From assembly GCA_947382625.1 (NCBI GenBank), contig CANDAG010000031.1, forward strand, positions 1 to 42,038: a stretch of 42,038 bases of DNA, given 5' to 3'. The notes beneath the pieces are model-generated. The model made no database searches, was not told where the DNA came from, and saw only the letters and a program-made list of their open reading frames with translations. The position numbers were made by a program, and so were the translations under genes. Source of the DNA: an uncultured Lachnospiraceae bacterium. GTDB taxonomy: Bacteria; Bacillota; Clostridia; Lachnospirales; Lachnospiraceae. Positions 1 to 16,671 of this stretch are shown here, piece by piece (positions within the stretch are counted from its first letter, which is position 1; every line of letters starts with the position of its first letter).

Positions 1-1097
1 TCTTCGCAGGCGATCCCGTTTGGGTAACCGAGTCTCTTGGCGGTGTTGGTGTTGACGGACGTCACATGGTAACAAGAATGAGCTTCCGTTATCTGCATAC
101 TCTCACCAACTTAGGACCCAGCCCTGAGCCTAACCTGACAGTTCTCTGGTCCACAAGACTTCCTGAGAACTGGAAGAAATACTGTGCTAAGATGTCTATC
201 CAGACCTCTTCTATCCAGTATGAGAACGATGACCTCATGAGAGTTACTCATGGTGATGACTACGGTATTGCATGCTGCGTATCCTCCATGGTGATCGGTA
301 AGGAAATGCAGTTCTTCGGAGCACGTGCAAACGTTGCTAAATGTCTGCTTTACGCTCTGAATGGCGGTATCGATGAAGTTACCAAGAAACAGGTTGGACC
401 TAAATATCGTCCTGTAACCGGTGATGTTCTTGATTATGATGATGTATACAGCAAATTTATCGACATGCTTGAGTGGCAGGCAGATGTTTATGTTAACACT
501 CTGAACGTTATCCACTACATGCATGACAAATACTGCTATGAGAGAGCTGAAATGGCACTCCATGACAGAGATGTTAAGCGTTACTTCGCAACAGGTGTTG
601 CAGGTCTTTCCATCGTTGCTGACTCCTTATCCGCGATCAAGTATGCTAAGGTTGAACCCATCAGGGACGAAGACGGAATCATCGTTGACTTCAAGACCAC
701 CGGTGAATTCCCTAAATACGGTAATGATGATGACCGCGTAGACAGCATCGCTCAGGATGTTGTTCACAAGTTTATGACTGCGATCAGAAGACATCACACC
801 TACAGGAATGGTGTTCCCACCACTTCCATTCTTACCATTACATCTAATGTAACCTATGGTAAGGCTACAGGAAACACACCTGACGGACGTAAGAAAGGTC
901 AGCCTTTTGCACCTGGTGCAAACCCGATGCACGGACGTGATACTCACGGCGCAGTAGCTTCCCTCTCTTCCGTATCCAAGCTTCCTTTCAATGATGCACA
1001 GGATGGTATCTCCAATACCTTCACCATCATTCCCGGAGCTCTCGGCAAAGAGGATCAGGTATTTGCAGGCGATATCGAGCTTGACCTGAACAAATAA
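1..1097 (+). CDS. pflB: Pyruvate formate-lyase catalytic core, 5' truncated, without glycyl-radical domain
   Basis: The frame is open from base 3, so the N-terminus lies outside the window. PFL cleaves pyruvate with CoA to acetyl-CoA and formate in the cytoplasm during anaerobic growth. The adjacent catalytic cysteines (equivalent to E. coli Cys418-Cys419) are at bases 273-278 in the context IACCVSS. The sequence follows PFL closely up to the [13 protein letters not shown] stretch and stops at 1097. E. coli PFL continues for roughly another 60-70 residues that carry the radical glycine; here that part is absent and is encoded by a separate gene at 1389-1631. There is no poly-base slip or leftover coding sequence at the stop, and two further genes with their own ribosome sites follow, so this looks like a stable gene split rather than a recent frameshift. 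The family assignment is very secure; the split is seen directly. Confidence 0.95.
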
Positions 1098-1137
1098 GCA
1101 AACAGAAATTTAACCCAATTCCAGGAGGTACAATGCA

Positions 1138-1341
1138 ATGGACGACAAAAAAATGATTGACGATCTTGTAAAAATGCTGGATTCCGGCATGGCTATGGGA
1201 GTAGGGCACGTAAACGTAGACTACGACGAGTCCAAAGAAGAGTCAAAGAATGTTCAGACCATGGGATGTACGGATTGCTCCAGAACTCCTCTGGCATGCA
1301 GTGTACCTACCCTGGAGGACGGTTTGGACGATTTTCATTAA
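1138..1341 (+). CDS. Small protein between PFL core and radical domain; degenerate radical-domain start plus Cys cluster
   Basis: This is a 67-residue protein with AGGAGG nine bases before its ATG. Residues 8-30 (DDLVKMLDSGMAMGVGHVNV) line up with the start of the neighbouring glycyl-radical protein ([20 protein letters not shown]). The RVSGYA radical loop is missing. In its place is an acidic linker, then a cysteine cluster (GCTDCSRTPLAC) and an acidic end. I infer a duplicated radical-domain start that kept the surface docking to the PFL core and gained a metal- or thiol-reactive tail. It could be a plug, a chaperone or an oxygen or redox sensor for the core. I know no named function. The gene itself is well supported by its ribosome site and its place in the operon. 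Confidence 0.75.
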   Translation: MDDKKMIDDLVKMLDSGMAMGVGHVNVDYDESKEESKNVQTMGCTDCSRTPLACSVPTLEDGLDDFH

Positions 1342-1344
1342 AAA

Positions 1345-1364
1345 AGCGGTCTTTTGTATCCGCT
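1345..1364 (+). other. Small intercistronic hairpin before the radical-domain gene
   Basis: AGCGG (1345-1349) pairs with CCGCT (1360-1364) around a ten-base loop, just after the stop of the 67-residue gene and before the AAGGAGG of the next. It has no T-tract. It could be a processing or stability element adjusting the ratio of core to radical protein; this is inference. Confidence 0.3.
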
Positions 1365-1388
1365 TATCTTAAAAGGAGGTAAATTACC

Positions 1389-1631
1389 ATGGCATCAAGC
1401 ACAGCACAGGTAGATAACTTAGTATCATTGTTGGACGGTTACGCTACAAAAGGCGGACATCACCTTAACGTAAATGTATTAAACAGAGATATGTTACTGG
1501 ACGCTCAGAAGCATCCCGAGAACTATCCTCAGCTTACAATCCGTGTTTCCGGATATGCTGTTAACTTCATCAAATTAACACCCGAACAGCAGGCTGACGT
1601 TATTTCCCGTACCTTCCACGAGTCCATCTAA
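1389..1631 (+). CDS. grcA: Stand-alone glycyl-radical domain protein (GrcA/YfiD-like)
   Basis: This 80-residue protein is the C-terminal radical domain of PFL as its own gene. The motif RVSGYAVNF places the radical glycine at residue 55. The preceding [17 protein letters not shown] and the ending [11 protein letters not shown] match the end of ordinary PFL. A strong ribosome site (AAAAGGAGG) precedes the ATG. In E. coli the comparable protein YfiD/GrcA is a spare part that rescues oxygen-cleaved PFL. Here the adjacent core lacks this domain, so the protein should be an obligate subunit rather than a spare. The radical would be installed by the activating enzyme encoded 133 bases downstream. 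The symbol is used by similarity; the role differs if the split is genuine. Confidence 0.9.
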
Positions 1632-1670
1632 GAACGTACAAAACATCTCAGAGAAATATGTTATGCTGAC

Positions 1671-1701
1671 AAACCCTCCGGCTTGTATGGCCGGAGGGTT
1701 T
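1671..1701 (+). terminator. Perfect 12-bp hairpin between radical-domain gene and pflA
   Basis: Bases 1671-1682 pair perfectly with 1690-1701 around a seven-base loop. The arm ends in TTT but no long T-tract follows, so it may be a partial terminator or attenuator that lowers pflA expression relative to the two PFL subunits. Confidence 0.6.
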
Positions 1702-1708
1702 AACTGAC

Positions 1709-1742
1709 ATAAGGATGTCTCGCAAAGCGCGGCATCCCTTGC
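1709..1742 (+). repeat. Small palindromic repeat, copy A
   Basis: The unit starts with CATAAGGATG and has GCAAAGC near its middle and GCATCC as the other arm. In reverse orientation it matches the tandem pair at 3719-3791 (CATAAGGATG, GCGAAGC, ACATCC) with one indel and several substitutions. It lies just upstream of pflA. Confidence 0.55.
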
Positions 1743-1763
1743 TATAACAGGAGGTTTTTATCT

Positions 1764-2522
1764 ATGCAAGGCAGAATTCACTCTTTAGAAAGCTTCGGCA
1801 CCGTAGACGGTCCGGGAACACGCTTTGTGGTCTTTGTACAGGGCTGCCCCATGCGCTGCGCCTACTGCCATAACCCGGACACCTGGGCTATGACCGGCGG
1901 AACCATGATGGAGCCGCAGGAGATTTTTGAGCAATACAAAAGAAATGAGGAGTTTTACAAAAACGGCGGCATTACCGTTACCGGCGGAGAGCCCCTTATG
2001 CAGGTGGACTTCCTCATTGATCTCTTTACTATTGCCAAGGCAGATCACGTCCATACCTGCATTGATTCTTCCGGTATCGCTTTTAAGCCGGACAACAAGG
2101 CTTTTATCGAAAAGCTTGATAAGCTGATGGCTCTGACAGACCTTGTCATGCTGGATATCAAGCATATCGACCCTGATAAGCATAAGGAACTGACTGCCCA
2201 GCCTAATGATGGAATTTTAGCCTTTGCTTCTTACCTGAACGAAAAGCATGTAGATATGTGGATCCGTCATGTTGTTGTCCCCGGGATCACAGACGATGAA
2301 GATTCCCTGTTTAAGCTCGGCTATTTCATCGGGCAGTTTTCCAACCTGAAGGCTCTCGATGTACTGCCTTATCACACCATGGGAGAAACGAAATACCAGA
2401 AATTGGGGATTCCCTACAAGCTGGCAGGAGTTCCCGCTATGGACAAAAACAAGGTCATAGAGAAAAAGGAGATCATCTTAAACGGCATCCGCACACGCCG
2501 TGAGGAAAACAGCCGCCGGTAG
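1764..2522 (+). CDS. pflA: Pyruvate formate-lyase activating enzyme (radical SAM)
   Basis: This 252-residue protein carries the radical SAM cluster motif CPMRCAYC (Cys28, Cys32, Cys35) followed by HNPDTW, typical of PFL activases. It uses a [4Fe-4S] cluster and S-adenosylmethionine to abstract hydrogen from the PFL radical glycine, here presumably Gly55 of the separate protein at 1389-1631. ITVTGGEPL and the later VMLDIKHID and RHVVVPGITDD segments fit the family, as does the length (E. coli PflA is 246). AGGAGG precedes the ATG. It is co-directional with the split PFL, separated by a hairpin and a repeat unit. The ferredoxin downstream could help supply electrons, which is inference. Confidence 0.95.
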   Translation: MQGRIHSLESFGTVDGPGTRFVVFVQGCPMRCAYCHNPDTWAMTGGTMMEPQEIFEQYKRNEEFYKNGGITVTGGEPLMQVDFLIDLFTIAKADHVHTCIDSSGIAFKPDNKAFIEKLDKLMALTDLVMLDIKHIDPDKHKELTAQPNDGILAFASYLNEKHVDMWIRHVVVPGITDDEDSLFKLGYFIGQFSNLKALDVLPYHTMGETKYQKLGIPYKLAGVPAMDKNKVIEKKEIILNGIRTRREENSRR

Positions 2523-2556
2523 AATTTCTGTTCCGGAGCTTATATTTTAAGATATT

Positions 2557-2586
2557 TTGCTTGTATTCCCTATGATTTTATATTAA
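2557..2586 (+). promoter_or_regulatory. Candidate sigma-A promoter for ferredoxin
   Basis: TTGCTT at 2557-2562 and TATTAA at 2581-2586 are separated by 18 bases, about 45 bases upstream of the ferredoxin ATG. The match is moderate. Confidence 0.4.
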
Positions 2587-2631
2587 AATGAAGTGAACAA
2601 ATATGGATATATTTATAAGGAGGATTTCATC

Positions 2632-2802
2632 ATGGCATATGTTATTGGTGACGCTTGTATTTCTTGTGGTGCCTGTGCTGGACAGTGTCCCGTAGGCGCG
2701 ATCAGCGAAGGAGATGGGAAGTTTGAGATCGACCCTAATACCTGCATCAGCTGCGGTTCCTGCGCTGGCGGATGTCCTGTAGGCGCTATTTCTGAAGAAT
2801 AA
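2632..2802 (+). CDS. 2[4Fe-4S] clostridial-type ferredoxin
   Basis: This 56-residue soluble electron carrier has two CxxCxxCxxxCP motifs: Cys9, 12, 15, 19 and Cys38, 41, 44, 48. The two halves are near repeats of each other (CISCGACAGQCPVGAI and CISCGSCAGGCPVGAI). A start at 2593 is also open, but AAGGAGG sits just before the ATG at 2632 and MAYVIGDAC is the usual ferredoxin start, so the shorter form is chosen. It probably serves general low-potential electron transfer; donation to PflA is possible but not shown. Confidence 0.95.
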   Translation: MAYVIGDACISCGACAGQCPVGAISEGDGKFEIDPNTCISCGSCAGGCPVGAISEE

Positions 2803-2822
2803 GAGCAGCAGACACATATTAT

Positions 2823-2866
2823 TTAATCAAACGCCGCTACGCTTCGCGAATCGGCTTATTGATTAA
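2823..2866. repeat. Palindromic element after ferredoxin
   Basis: TTAATCAA (2823-2830) pairs with TTGATTAA (2859-2866), with inner arms GCCG and CGGC around GCTTCGC. No T-tract follows on either strand, so it is not a classic terminator. The centre GCTTCGC and the following CTTAT resemble the repeat at 3719-3791 although the arms differ; it may be a distant member. Confidence 0.4.
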
Positions 2867-2891
2867 AAAACGTGCGCCCCGCAGGGCGCAC
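2865..2891 (-). terminator. Rho-independent terminator of the merR-like gene
   Basis: On the minus strand GTGCGCCC pairs with GGGCGCAC (2872-2879 with 2884-2891, four-base loop) and is followed by a run of six Ts. Confidence 0.85.
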
Positions 2892-2913
2892 CGTACCACC
2901 CCAAAGCGTCCGG

Positions 2914-3690
2914 TCATACGATCGAGCGCTTTTTTCTTAAGAATCCTCTGGATGTCTCTTTTGTCTTTTCTGCTCCCTTCTCCTGTTCATCTGTCGCTGT
3001 CATTTCCTTAACGGTATTTTCTTTTTTCATTTTTCGGTTCTTTCGTCCTCTTTTATTAAGGGAACGCAGAAGCTCGTCCAACTGCTGATAATGCTCCTCC
3101 TGCATCTTGATACGTTCTTCCTCCCTTGCATCCTCCCGTTCCTCCTGAAGCCGGAACTGGTAATCCAGCTCCTTTAAAACATCCTCCTTGATCTCCTGGC
3201 ACATCTCCTGATTGTTGCTCTGTACAGCCTCCATGATCATTTCACGAAGCAATTGCTGAAGTCTTATACTTTTCTGTTCCCGGCTTTCCTCCTGCAGAGC
3301 CATGGTTTTTCCTTCCACCGGCAGGAATTCTCCTTTTTTTACCATCACCACATGACGCTTCATATCCAACTCTCCCTGCGATTCCTCTGCTTCTGACATT
3401 TCCACTTCTCCTTTCTCATTCCCTCCATTCTTTTCAAACAAAAGCACCGGCGAAAGCAGATCGCCGTTTTTCAGCATATGTCGGATCGCCTTCAGCTGCA
3501 ATCCCTGTCCCTTTAACTCCTTTATCCTCCGAAATCTTCTGATGTCCTCTTCTGTGTAATAGCGATGTCCCATTTCGTTTCTCTTCGCCGGTATCTCCAG
3601 CTCTTCCTCCCAGTATCTGAGTACATGAGCCTCCACCTCCACCTGCTTTGCGGCATCTGAGATCATATAAATCCTCTCTGTCTGTGTCAT
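2914..3690 (-). CDS. MerR-type DNA-binding protein with long coiled-coil tail
   Basis: This 258-residue protein opens with a MerR winged-helix domain (about residues 5-75: ISDAAKQVEVEAHVLRYWEEEL, then GHRYYTEEDIRRFRRIKELK). A long charged region (about 140-220) rich in Glu, Gln and Arg looks like coiled coil, and the tail is basic (RKKRSIV). No ligand-binding cysteines or small-molecule domain is visible. The start at 3690 is preferred over an open upstream start at 3747 because AAAGGGGA lies eight bases before it and the longer form would read into the repeat. MerR head plus coiled coil also describes chromosome-organising proteins such as RacA, so a structural role is an alternative to transcriptional control. 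It has its own terminator and lies between the PFL locus and dnaB. Confidence 0.8.
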   Translation of the reverse strand: MTQTERIYMISDAAKQVEVEAHVLRYWEEELEIPAKRNEMGHRYYTEEDIRRFRRIKELKGQGLQLKAIRHMLKNGDLLSPVLLFEKNGGNEKGEVEMSEAEESQGELDMKRHVVMVKKGEFLPVEGKTMALQEESREQKSIRLQQLLREMIMEAVQSNNQEMCQEIKEDVLKELDYQFRLQEEREDAREEERIKMQEEHYQQLDELLRSLNKRGRKNRKMKKENTVKEMTATDEQEKGAEKTKETSRGFLRKKRSIV

Positions 3691-3718
3691 TGTAAAATCC
3701 CCTTTCTTTGATAATCTT

Positions 3719-3791
3719 AAACAACGGATGTCAGCTTCGCCAGCCATCCTTATGCAAACAACGGATGTCAGCTTCGCCAGCCATCCTTATG
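3719..3791. repeat. Tandem pair of 36-bp palindromic repeats, copies B1 and B2
   Basis: Two identical 36-base units (3719-3754 and 3756-3791) are separated by one base. Each has arms GGATG and CATCC around CAGCTTCGCCAGC. They fill the gap between the merR-like start and the dnaB terminator. Related copies are at 1709-1742 (inverted) and 17801-17852 (same orientation). Confidence 0.85.
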
Positions 3792-15115: not shown

Positions 15116-15782
15116 TCAGCTGATACCCTACTCCCTTTCTGGTCAGGATAAAATCCCTGATCCCTGCCTCCTCCAGCCTTTTTCTCAGGCGGTTCATATT
15201 CACTGTCAATGTATTATCGTCCACAAAGCACTCATCCTCCCAGAGACGCTTCATAATGCTTTCCCGGGACACCACCTCTCCGGCGTGCTCAAACAAAAGC
15301 TGCAGGATCCTGAATTCATTTCTGGAAAGCTTAAGGCTTTTTCCCTGATAGACCAGAGACATATCCGACAGACTGATGACCACATCCTTATACTCTAAAA
15401 GGGAAGACTGCCTCTGAAAGGAGTAGGACCGCCGCAATACTGCCTGTACCTTTGCCGCCAAAACCTCCAGATCAAAGGGCTTTGCAATAAAGTCATCCCC
15501 TCCCATATTTACTGCCATCACAATATTCATATTATCGGAAGCAGAGGAAATAAAAACCACCGGTGCCTGAGAAAGCTTTCGGATCTCCGTACACCAGTAA
15601 TATCCGTTATAAAAGGGCAGGCCGATATCCATAAGCACAAGATGAGGATCGAATTTCCCAAAATGGGACAGCACATTTGCAAAATCTGTCACACATTCCA
15701 CCTCATATCCCCACTTTTCCAAATGTCCCCTGACCTTATCTGAAATGACCTCATCATCCTCAACTATTAAGATACGAAACAT
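15108..15782 (-). CDS. bceR: BceR-type response regulator (OmpR family)
   Basis: This 224-residue regulator has a receiver domain with phospho-acceptor Asp52 (LVLMDIGLP) and acidic pair Glu8-Asp9-Asp10. A C-terminal winged helix ends TRKGVGYQLNE. It is first in regulator-kinase-ATPase-permease order. It should bind the box at 14055-14068 and activate bceAB. AAAGGGGG precedes the ATG. Confidence 0.94.
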   Translation of the reverse strand: MFRILIVEDDEVISDKVRGHLEKWGYEVECVTDFANVLSHFGKFDPHLVLMDIGLPFYNGYYWCTEIRKLSQAPVVFISSASDNMNIVMAVNMGGDDFIAKPFDLEVLAAKVQAVLRRSYSFQRQSSLLEYKDVVISLSDMSLVYQGKSLKLSRNEFRILQLLFEHAGEVVSRESIMKRLWEDECFVDDNTLTVNMNRLRKRLEEAGIRDFILTRKGVGYQLNE

Positions 15783-15889
15783 GAATTTTACCCCCTTTAT
15801 GGCAGTTGCCTGCAGGCCGGTTCCCCGGCTTTACCCGGCTCTGAAAATAACACTACCGAAATCATTTTGATTTTGCAAGCCCCTTCATA

Positions 15890-15903
15890 AAAAGTTAACT
15901 TTT
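15890..15903. promoter_or_regulatory. 14-bp perfect palindrome in the divergent region
   Basis: AAAAGTTAACTTTT is perfectly symmetrical and lies between the divergent bceR and LytTR regulator genes, about 55 bases before the latter. It may be an operator; no cognate protein can be named. Confidence 0.35.
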
Positions 15904-15957
15904 GTATCCGCCAAAAAAGAGATAAAATGTTAATAAAAAGGAATGGGGAGATATGTG

Positions 15958-16671
15958 ATGCTACAGATTGCCATATGTGACGATGAACAGCTCTACCGGG
16001 AAAAAATACAGCGCCTTGCGGCCGATTATCTGCTTAATCATGATTTAACCTGCGAGTTTCACTTATTTTCCTCCGGTAAAGACTTCTTAAGCCAAGGTGG
16101 GAGCAGCGTAAAATATGATATCGTATTTATGGATATCAGCATGGATGCCATGGACGGTATTCAGACAGCCATGCAGATGCGAACTTTTCACTCGGATACC
16201 TTCCTGGTCCTTGTCACCGCCTTTATCGACTATGTACTGGAGGGCTATAAGGTAAATGCCATGCGTTATCTTTTAAAGGATACTCTGGACGCCTCCTTTT
16301 GCGAATGTATGGATGCTATCCTGCAGAAAATGCAGACGGCACGGGTGGTCTTTCCCTTTACGGACGGAGAACGGAGCCTGTATACCGATAATCTTCTTTA
16401 TGTGGAAAGCCGGAAGCATAAATCCATTTTCTATTATATGGATACGGCCCTGGAAACCTATGAGATTTATCGGAAATTGGATGCGATCGAGCAGGAGCTT
16501 TCCGGCTGCGGCTTCCTGCGCATCCACAAAAGCTATCTTGTGAATATGAAGCATGTCCGAAAAATCTGCAATTATACTGCATTTTTGGACACCGGCACAG
16601 AGCTCCCGATCCCCCGGCTCAGATTTCAGGCGGTTCGGGAAGCCTATGTAATATATAAAGGAGCAATCTGA
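15958..16671 (+). CDS. LytTR-family response regulator
   Basis: This 237-residue regulator has a receiver (IAICDDEQ; Asp59 in IVFMDISMD) and a C-terminal LytTR DNA-binding domain (about 135-235, with FLRIHKSYLVNMKHV). The start at 15958 has GGGGAG eight bases upstream, whereas the ATG at 15943 has poor spacing. It overlaps the kinase start by one base (TGATG). This type (AgrA, ComE, BlpR) usually answers peptide or quorum signals. No precursor peptide gene was found nearby. Confidence 0.92.
   Translation: MLQIAICDDEQLYREKIQRLAADYLLNHDLTCEFHLFSSGKDFLSQGGSSVKYDIVFMDISMDAMDGIQTAMQMRTFHSDTFLVLVTAFIDYVLEGYKVNAMRYLLKDTLDASFCECMDAILQKMQTARVVFPFTDGERSLYTDNLLYVESRKHKSIFYYMDTALETYEIYRKLDAIEQELSGCGFLRIHKSYLVNMKHVRKICNYTAFLDTGTELPIPRLRFQAVREAYVIYKGAI

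Follow-up and report, generated by a model that had tools for sequence, protein, structure and literature searches.

Proteins that act as spare parts for pyruvate formate-lyase (PFL) are already known (PMC8683613, PMC12338860; these papers, PMC9669993 and PMC12590467 are cited here from excerpts). Escherichia coli GrcA/YfiD is a stand-alone glycyl radical domain with an RVSGYA loop that is able to complete the PFL barrel (PMC8683613). Phage T4 Y06I is a spare-part protein of the same kind, judging by a reference title in PMC12338860. YfiD has a disordered N-terminus of 60 residues and rescues a full-length PFL that has been cut. When the E. coli core was cut at residue 695 and supplied with YfiD, binding and activation were poor and the radical was about 32-fold lower (PMC8683613). 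The PFL locus described here lies at the start of contig CANDAG010000031.1 of an uncultured Lachnospiraceae bacterium (assembly GCA_947382625.1), positions 1 to 42,038 of which were analysed (the window). Read from its sequence and those of its relatives, the locus represents a PFL that is split by nature. The arrangement is real and widespread, and it includes a third element that had not been recognised.

The catalytic barrel, or core, is encoded at positions 3-1097 (all features given here are on the forward strand) and matches PF02901 with an E value of 2e-115 and positions 312-665 of the 744 in TIGR01255. The frame is open at the contig edge, which is also the window start, and contains the C-terminal 364 of 679 residues. 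The N-terminal part is on contig C69, whose fetched end repeats the first 53 bases of the window without a difference (an overlap of at least 53 bases). The joined core of 679 amino acids is 62% identical to E. coli PflB. The window part, missing both ends, scores 599 bits against TIGR01255 and for that reason stays under the whole-protein cut-off of 994.2. The active-site Cys-Cys pair is encoded at 273-278 and consists of C406/C407, equivalent to C419/C420 in E. coli (Met = 1). In the same numbering, homology extends as far as E. coli residue 681, short of the radical glycine 735. The glycyl radical domain has no place on the core chain, and the radical glycine is encoded by another gene. The position of the domain is taken by a new linker, FxGDLEVDL, which is found on split cores with or without a cysteine tail.

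The radical subunit, GrcA3, is an 80-residue protein encoded at 1389-1631. It matches PF01228 with 82.2 bits and narrowly passes the cut-off of NF038360 (159.9 versus 158 bits). Its glycyl loop, RVSGYA, is at 1542-1559, with the glycine codon at 1551-1553, and direct reading of the sequence gives a ribosome site, AGGAGG, at 1374-1379. The activating enzyme PflA, a radical SAM protein, is encoded at 1764-2522 (TIGR02493, 293.8 bits, cut-off 231.75). At the level of sequence, then, the core retains the barrel and the Cys-Cys pair and lacks the radical domain, which is a separate subunit with PflA encoded beside it. An earlier note on this DNA had claimed that the core with its Cys-Cys pair ends before the radical domain and that a separate 80-residue RVSGYA protein has its own ribosome site. 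The TIGR01255 match and the coordinates above bear out both claims. The note had missed a third gene, mid, between the other two.

The resemblance of this locus to a canonical PFL (TIGR01255) lies in the barrel, the Cys-Cys pair and the PflA partner; the difference is that the radical domain is off the chain, replaced by the FxGDLEVDL linker and, in some cores, a cysteine tail. GrcA3 is likewise distinct from YfiD in being the only radical subunit of its core, in beginning at the helix that precedes the strand and in being encoded together with the core. It reaches only 99.9 bits against the GrcA/YfiD model TIGR04365 (cut-off 170), over model positions 65-126. The native split is about 15 residues earlier than the 695 cut in E. 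coli, so that the radical subunit keeps the helix and the core carries FxGDLEVDL. In view of the poor activation of the 695-cut core by YfiD, the core of the native split has presumably undergone adaptation. The NF038360 family of GrcA3 fits in score and the RVSGYA loop. Its name suggests a spare part, whereas here the protein is apparently the working radical subunit, no full-length PFL having been found in the assembly.

The mid gene (1138-1341) has its own ribosome site, AGGAGG at 1123-1128, 9 bases 5' of the ATG, as read directly from the sequence. It encodes a 67-residue protein of an unnamed family, composed of a docking-like N-terminus and a cysteine tail. Residues 1-29 (1138-1224) are similar to GrcA3 over its N-terminal helix and GHxNV strand. 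The tail is VQTMGCTDCSRTPLACSVPTLEDGLDDFH (1252-1338), with cysteine codons at 1267-1269, 1276-1278 and 1297-1299. The protein matches no Pfam family, gives only a weak GrcA3 match in NCBIfam (E 0.093), nothing below E 0.26 in PHROGs and no match among phage records. Against solved structures, the mid profile had no credible match (best E 0.75).

Relatives of mid were found in 77 of the 299 genomes of the family and in two of 398 genomes of the phylum, namely the present genome and one other of the same family. From a collection of named genomes, the best 80 of 391 confirmed mid-encoding stretches were used. Carriers there include Acetatifactor muris DSM 23669, Parablautia muri and P. intestinalis, and the titles mostly give Lachnospiraceae or an uncultured bacterium, with one Muribaculaceae (L259). 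Core, mid and GrcA3 occur together in 78 of the 80; no core was found in the other two, L219 and L257, where mid begins within about 170 bases of a contig end. Among these 80 relatives the median ratio of non-synonymous to synonymous substitution (dN/dS) is about 0.065 for mid (49 pairs gave values, of which 39 were usable) and 0.038 for GrcA3 (57 of 59 pairs). By this measure mid is under purifying selection. The head (residues 1-28, median dN 0.045) and the tail (residues 39-62, 0.038) are both conserved and are joined by a variable linker (dN 0.34, from 11 pairs only). A hairpin 3' of the mid stop codon in the window was considered and dropped, as it is absent from most of 25 relatives.

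By sequence, the N-terminus of mid resembles that of the radical subunit. Aligned by hhalign, residues 1-29 of mid fall on residues 1-29 of GrcA3 with a probability of 96.7 and an E value of 3.8e-10, while one reversed and five shuffled controls all gave a probability below 1. Profile searches find the likeness in both directions: 75 mid proteins, taken as a profile, pick up each of the 136 GrcA3 frames (E 1.7e-10 to 5e-6), and a profile of GrcA3 in turn picks up each of the 75 mids (E 2e-9 to 0.016), with E values scaled to those small sets. The shared stretch probably contains the strand that completes the PFL barrel ahead of the glycyl loop, on our reading of PMC8683613. Beyond the variable linker mid has no glycyl loop. 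Its place is taken by the cysteine tail, GCTDCSRTPLACSVPTLEDGLDD in the window, with the motif DC...AC.VPTL..G.D. Cys47, Cys54, Pro57 and Thr58 are invariant in 20 rows chosen for diversity. Two of the 75 mids (L051 and L090) stop before the second invariant cysteine.

Split cores without mid mostly end in a cysteine tail of their own, such as CGDMACKVPTLHKGIDD (L115), CSVGDSACNIPNLLEGLD (L146) and CSNGACASPTLFEGLD (L073). Of the 38 split cores without mid, 36 have two or more cysteines after an ALGK-type anchor; the same holds for none of 68 cores adjoined by mid, none of three with a mid gene elsewhere in the genome and none of 20 fused PFLs. These counts omit five cores cut by contig ends and cover 20 of 21 fused PFLs, one being without the anchor motif. 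A single cysteine in the counted stretch was seen in one of the 20 fused PFLs and in one of the three cores with mid elsewhere. In a second set (L184-L263), consisting of close relatives with mid that partly overlap the first set, tail cysteines are present in none of 78 cores. The sequences thus show a cysteine tail going with nearly every split PFL examined in the family, on the C-terminus of the core or on mid and, among the counted loci, never on both. The mid-less loci had initially been taken to lack a counterpart of mid; this was wrong, as their cores bear the tail.

A profile made from mid tails only, with one of the 75 mids left out, detects 21 of the 38 mid-less core tails at an E value of 0.01 or better, and none of the 68, the three or the 20 fused sequences. 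Shared ancestry inflates simple p-values, and for this reason reliance is placed on the number of switches on the tree. The state of the tail changes about 13 times (11 with weak branches collapsed), compared with a minimum of 23 in 200 shuffles. Exchange of the tail between the cis and trans arrangements seems to have happened repeatedly.

Several further observations concern the loci with unusual arrangements. In L177, L178 and L179 the mid gene is apart from core and GrcA3, and the cores have no C-terminal cysteine pair; mid is directly 5' (L179) or somewhat 5' (L178) of what appear from sequence to be proline biosynthesis genes. Core columns differ between loci with and without mid, a difference that may follow relatedness. 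The IMG/VR contig L312 (109813 bases) encodes a split core at 1453-3507 and a GrcA-like protein of 78 residues at 3525-3758, with no cysteine tail. On two other IMG/VR contigs, L314 and L315 (79069 and 73004 bases), the region 704-3004 has a GrcA-like gene that precedes the PFL core. There, in-frame TGA codons occupy three positions that are tryptophan in relatives, which suggests that TGA is read as tryptophan.

Judging from its genome sequence, the organism appears to use the split form as its normal PFL. The earlier note had proposed looking for a second full-length pflB, and no fused PFL was found in the assembly, which is 88% complete. Two TIGR01255 matches were counted in this genome, without positions, and the pieces placed on the window and on C69 are those of one gene. 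The other glycyl radical proteins present are a PFL2-3-like enzyme, NrdD and one protein resembling glycyl radical enzymes (GREs). This last, in L010 (the 15445-16314 region of contig C11), has 811 residues and a RIHGTFVNF loop in place of RVxGYA/F, and all its matches are under the family cut-offs. Genome G264, of the same genus and 98% complete, has a single TIGR01255 match, and the split core L145 comes from it.

Comparison with related Lachnospiraceae, also suggested in the note, yielded 113 further split loci in 113 genomes. With the present one, at least 114 of the 299 family genomes have a split PFL, and the gene is therefore neither broken nor the product of a sequencing error, as a mistaken stop at 1097 would have made it. 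The note's reading of the split enzyme as the normal one is supported. Its description of that enzyme as two-part was incomplete, as mid or a cysteine tail on the core goes with the two parts in nearly every split PFL of the family that was looked at. The stretches around the listed stand-alone GrcA3 matches, together with those around three lone mid matches, make 138 distinct stretches, which were classified as 72 with core, mid and GrcA3, 41 with core and GrcA3, 22 with GrcA3 and no core (one of them, L130, at a contig edge) and three with mid alone. A pflA-like frame is within the stretch in 106 of the 113 split loci.

Among 396 sampled Bacillota genomes, 118 have matches to the GrcA3 model at an E value of 1e-25, a threshold at which worse-scoring stand-alone radical proteins would not show. 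Outside the family every match listed is a frame of fused PFL length, except for two shorter frames. These, in G495 and G325, were considered as stand-alone radical frames and rejected, being fused PFLs broken by masked bases or a contig end. A core tree was built from 109 rows (the 113 split loci minus the five cores cut by contig ends, all of which have mid, plus the window). On the core tree the full and split forms are separated by two changes, compared with at least 16 in 100 label shuffles. Four fused PFLs (L274, L276, L279 and L280) form a small clade within the split clade, which may mean that the radical domain was fused back on or that a split arose independently. Some relatives have both forms, with fused PFLs in G284, G265 and G132 and split loci L057, L072 and L082.

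A second stand-alone GrcA3, very similar to that of the window, is encoded in the same genome on contig C15 at 46483-46716 (L148 / L002). We read the regulator upstream of it, from its sequence, as being of the Crp/Fnr type, and a relative of this regulator is present in the stretches of six of the 22 GrcA3-only loci. It is possible that the C15 protein is an oxygen-responsive spare radical subunit. Among the matches listed, an extra GrcA3 away from the core occurs in at least 21 of 76 genomes with mid and in none of 38 with a split PFL and no mid, counts in which the relatedness of the genomes is still contained. This skew toward genomes with mid is a hint in favour of the mechanism proposed below. 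The earlier suggestion that a damaged radical subunit could be exchanged is favoured indirectly by the extra GrcA3 genes of this genome and at least 20 others. Just 3' of pflA, at 2632-2802, the window also encodes a small 2[4Fe-4S] ferredoxin (NF058577, above cut-off), a possible electron donor to PflA.

How a core, a radical subunit and a cysteine tail might work together is suggested by ribonucleotide reductase (RNR). RNRs of class I and some of class II have a C-terminal cysteine pair that services the active site, and this is the model proposed here for the tail. The C-terminus of E. coli NrdA, for instance, is GCESGACKI, with Cys754 and Cys759. By analogy, the split PFLs place a cysteine pair after the barrel in 36 of the 38 mid-less cores and otherwise on mid. 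The class I enzyme is similar also in having its radical generator on another chain, and the split class II enzyme NrdJa/NrdJb in having part of its C-terminal domains on a second chain. According to PMC9669993, RNRs and GREs are structurally related. RNR nevertheless belongs to another family and catalyses another reaction, and the likeness is one of architecture and cysteine spacing.

We therefore propose, with a probability of about one half, that this is a natively split PFL in which the tail, in cis or on mid, services the active-site thiols in the manner of RNR while the radical subunit is exchanged. GrcA3 would dock in the barrel of the core and complete it, as YfiD does on oxygen-cut PFL, and would then be activated by PflA. 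Oxygen would cut GrcA3 at its glycine, after which the subunit could be replaced. With the socket left empty by its departure, the cysteine tail would reach the open active site and hold Cys406-Cys407 in the thiol state, or return them to it, and would itself be reduced by a cellular thiol carrier. In the trans arrangement mid would dock in the same groove through its GrcA3-like end and thus deliver the tail. A function of the tail like that of the C-terminal cysteine pair of RNR is what the analogy leads us to infer. It is a more tentative thought, less likely than not, that PFL of the Lachnospiraceae has re-evolved the layout of the aerobic type of RNR, with a replaceable radical subunit and a cysteine-pair arm that in many lineages is on mid, which would dock through a copy of the docking end of the radical subunit, the two proteins sharing one socket by turns.

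A number of observations weigh against this proposal. PFL turnover, unlike that of RNR, is not known to oxidise cysteines, and a reducing tail would therefore serve repair or protection only. Nothing in the data demands that mid and GrcA3 use the same groove. Seventeen of the 38 mid-less tails, including those of the CACCEPN type, miss the E value of 0.01 in the mid-tail search, so that their kinship with the mid tail is unproven. Two of the 38 mid-less cores (L070 and L077) end without a cysteine tail, as do the split PFLs on contigs of the viral collection, so that a split can exist without one. The mid of L101, one of the 75, is without the first invariant cysteine, and the mids of G012 and G026 are shortened by a stop that precedes AC.VPTL. 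Structure prediction lent no support. The query, L231, has core, mid and GrcA3 in one frame. In the first run, on the core and mid read-through with 70 rows whose cores were at least about 90% identical to the query, the predicted local distance difference test score (pLDDT) was 50.7 overall and mid was unplaced. With more diverse rows the core reached a predicted template modelling score of 0.77, and most of residues 592-755, with nearly all of mid, had a pLDDT below 50.

Of the other explanations, the one that fares best is that mid or the core tail is a non-redox plug or decoy, which would sit in the empty socket, make the barrel whole and keep oxygen and proteases away from the active-site cysteines. 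The active site of a core that lacks its radical domain would be exposed, mid has the N-terminal end of GrcA3 and no glycyl loop, and E. coli PFL is reported to be prone to proteolysis (PMC8683613). However, a plug leaves unexplained why cysteines are among the few invariant residues of the tail, and why a tail that is on the core comes with no docking part. We consider this explanation unlikely.

Less probable again is a role of the tail cysteines in binding a metal or an Fe-S cluster, or in recruiting PflA or GrcA3, as suggested by the presence of several cysteines within a short acidic tail. The small subunit of hydroxyphenylacetate decarboxylase binds a [4Fe-4S] cluster, and Fe-S small subunits of the benzylsuccinate synthase type have a set of four cysteines for the cluster. 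Mid resembles these proteins in being a small accessory GRE protein, but it has two to three conserved cysteines, which do not make up such a set, and an N-terminus like that of the radical subunit. Other GREs are known to have small accessory subunits, and those of benzylsuccinate synthase bind [4Fe-4S] clusters (PMC12590467). In the mid-less tails neighbouring cysteines are separated by 0-6 residues, a single C-x4-C being the commonest pattern (11 of 36), and 26 of the 36 have two cysteines only, which is few for a cluster held by one chain. Nor was any likeness to a known family found in Pfam, NCBIfam, PHROGs or the solved structures.

It is very unlikely that mid fills the second site of the PFL dimer as a dummy, resulting in hard-wired half-site reactivity. 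The GrcA3-like N-terminal part of mid would suit such a role, and the radical content of PflB in vitro is half-site; the in vivo results for native PflB lend such reactivity no support (both in PMC12338860), and no separate dummy protein was found for the 38 mid-less split PFLs. That the split results from decay or a sequencing error, with GrcA3 merely repairing some other PFL, is hardly credible: the term "autonomous cofactor" in the NCBI family name does denote a spare part, but it is set against the lack of any fused PFL found in this genome and the 113 further split loci, with conserved gene order and strong purifying selection on the small genes.

A search by title and the beginning of the abstract, to which most subscription papers and bioRxiv were external, found among the papers listed no description of a natively split PFL, of mid or of the cysteine tail. 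NCBIfam has a name for the radical subunit that points to a spare part, and no family in Pfam, NCBIfam or PHROGs was reached by mid at a meaningful level. PFL is central to gut fermentation and is a textbook example of irreversible damage by oxygen. A PFL that has its fragile part as a standard separate subunit, together with a cysteine tail in cis or in trans, provides a natural test system for the assembly, repair and protection of GREs. It also provides a counterpart among present-day enzymes to a transition proposed for RNR, in which a cysteine-rich C-terminus took the place of a glycyl radical domain (PMC9669993). Many gut Lachnospiraceae apparently build their PFL from parts, suggesting that servicing after damage is built into the enzyme.

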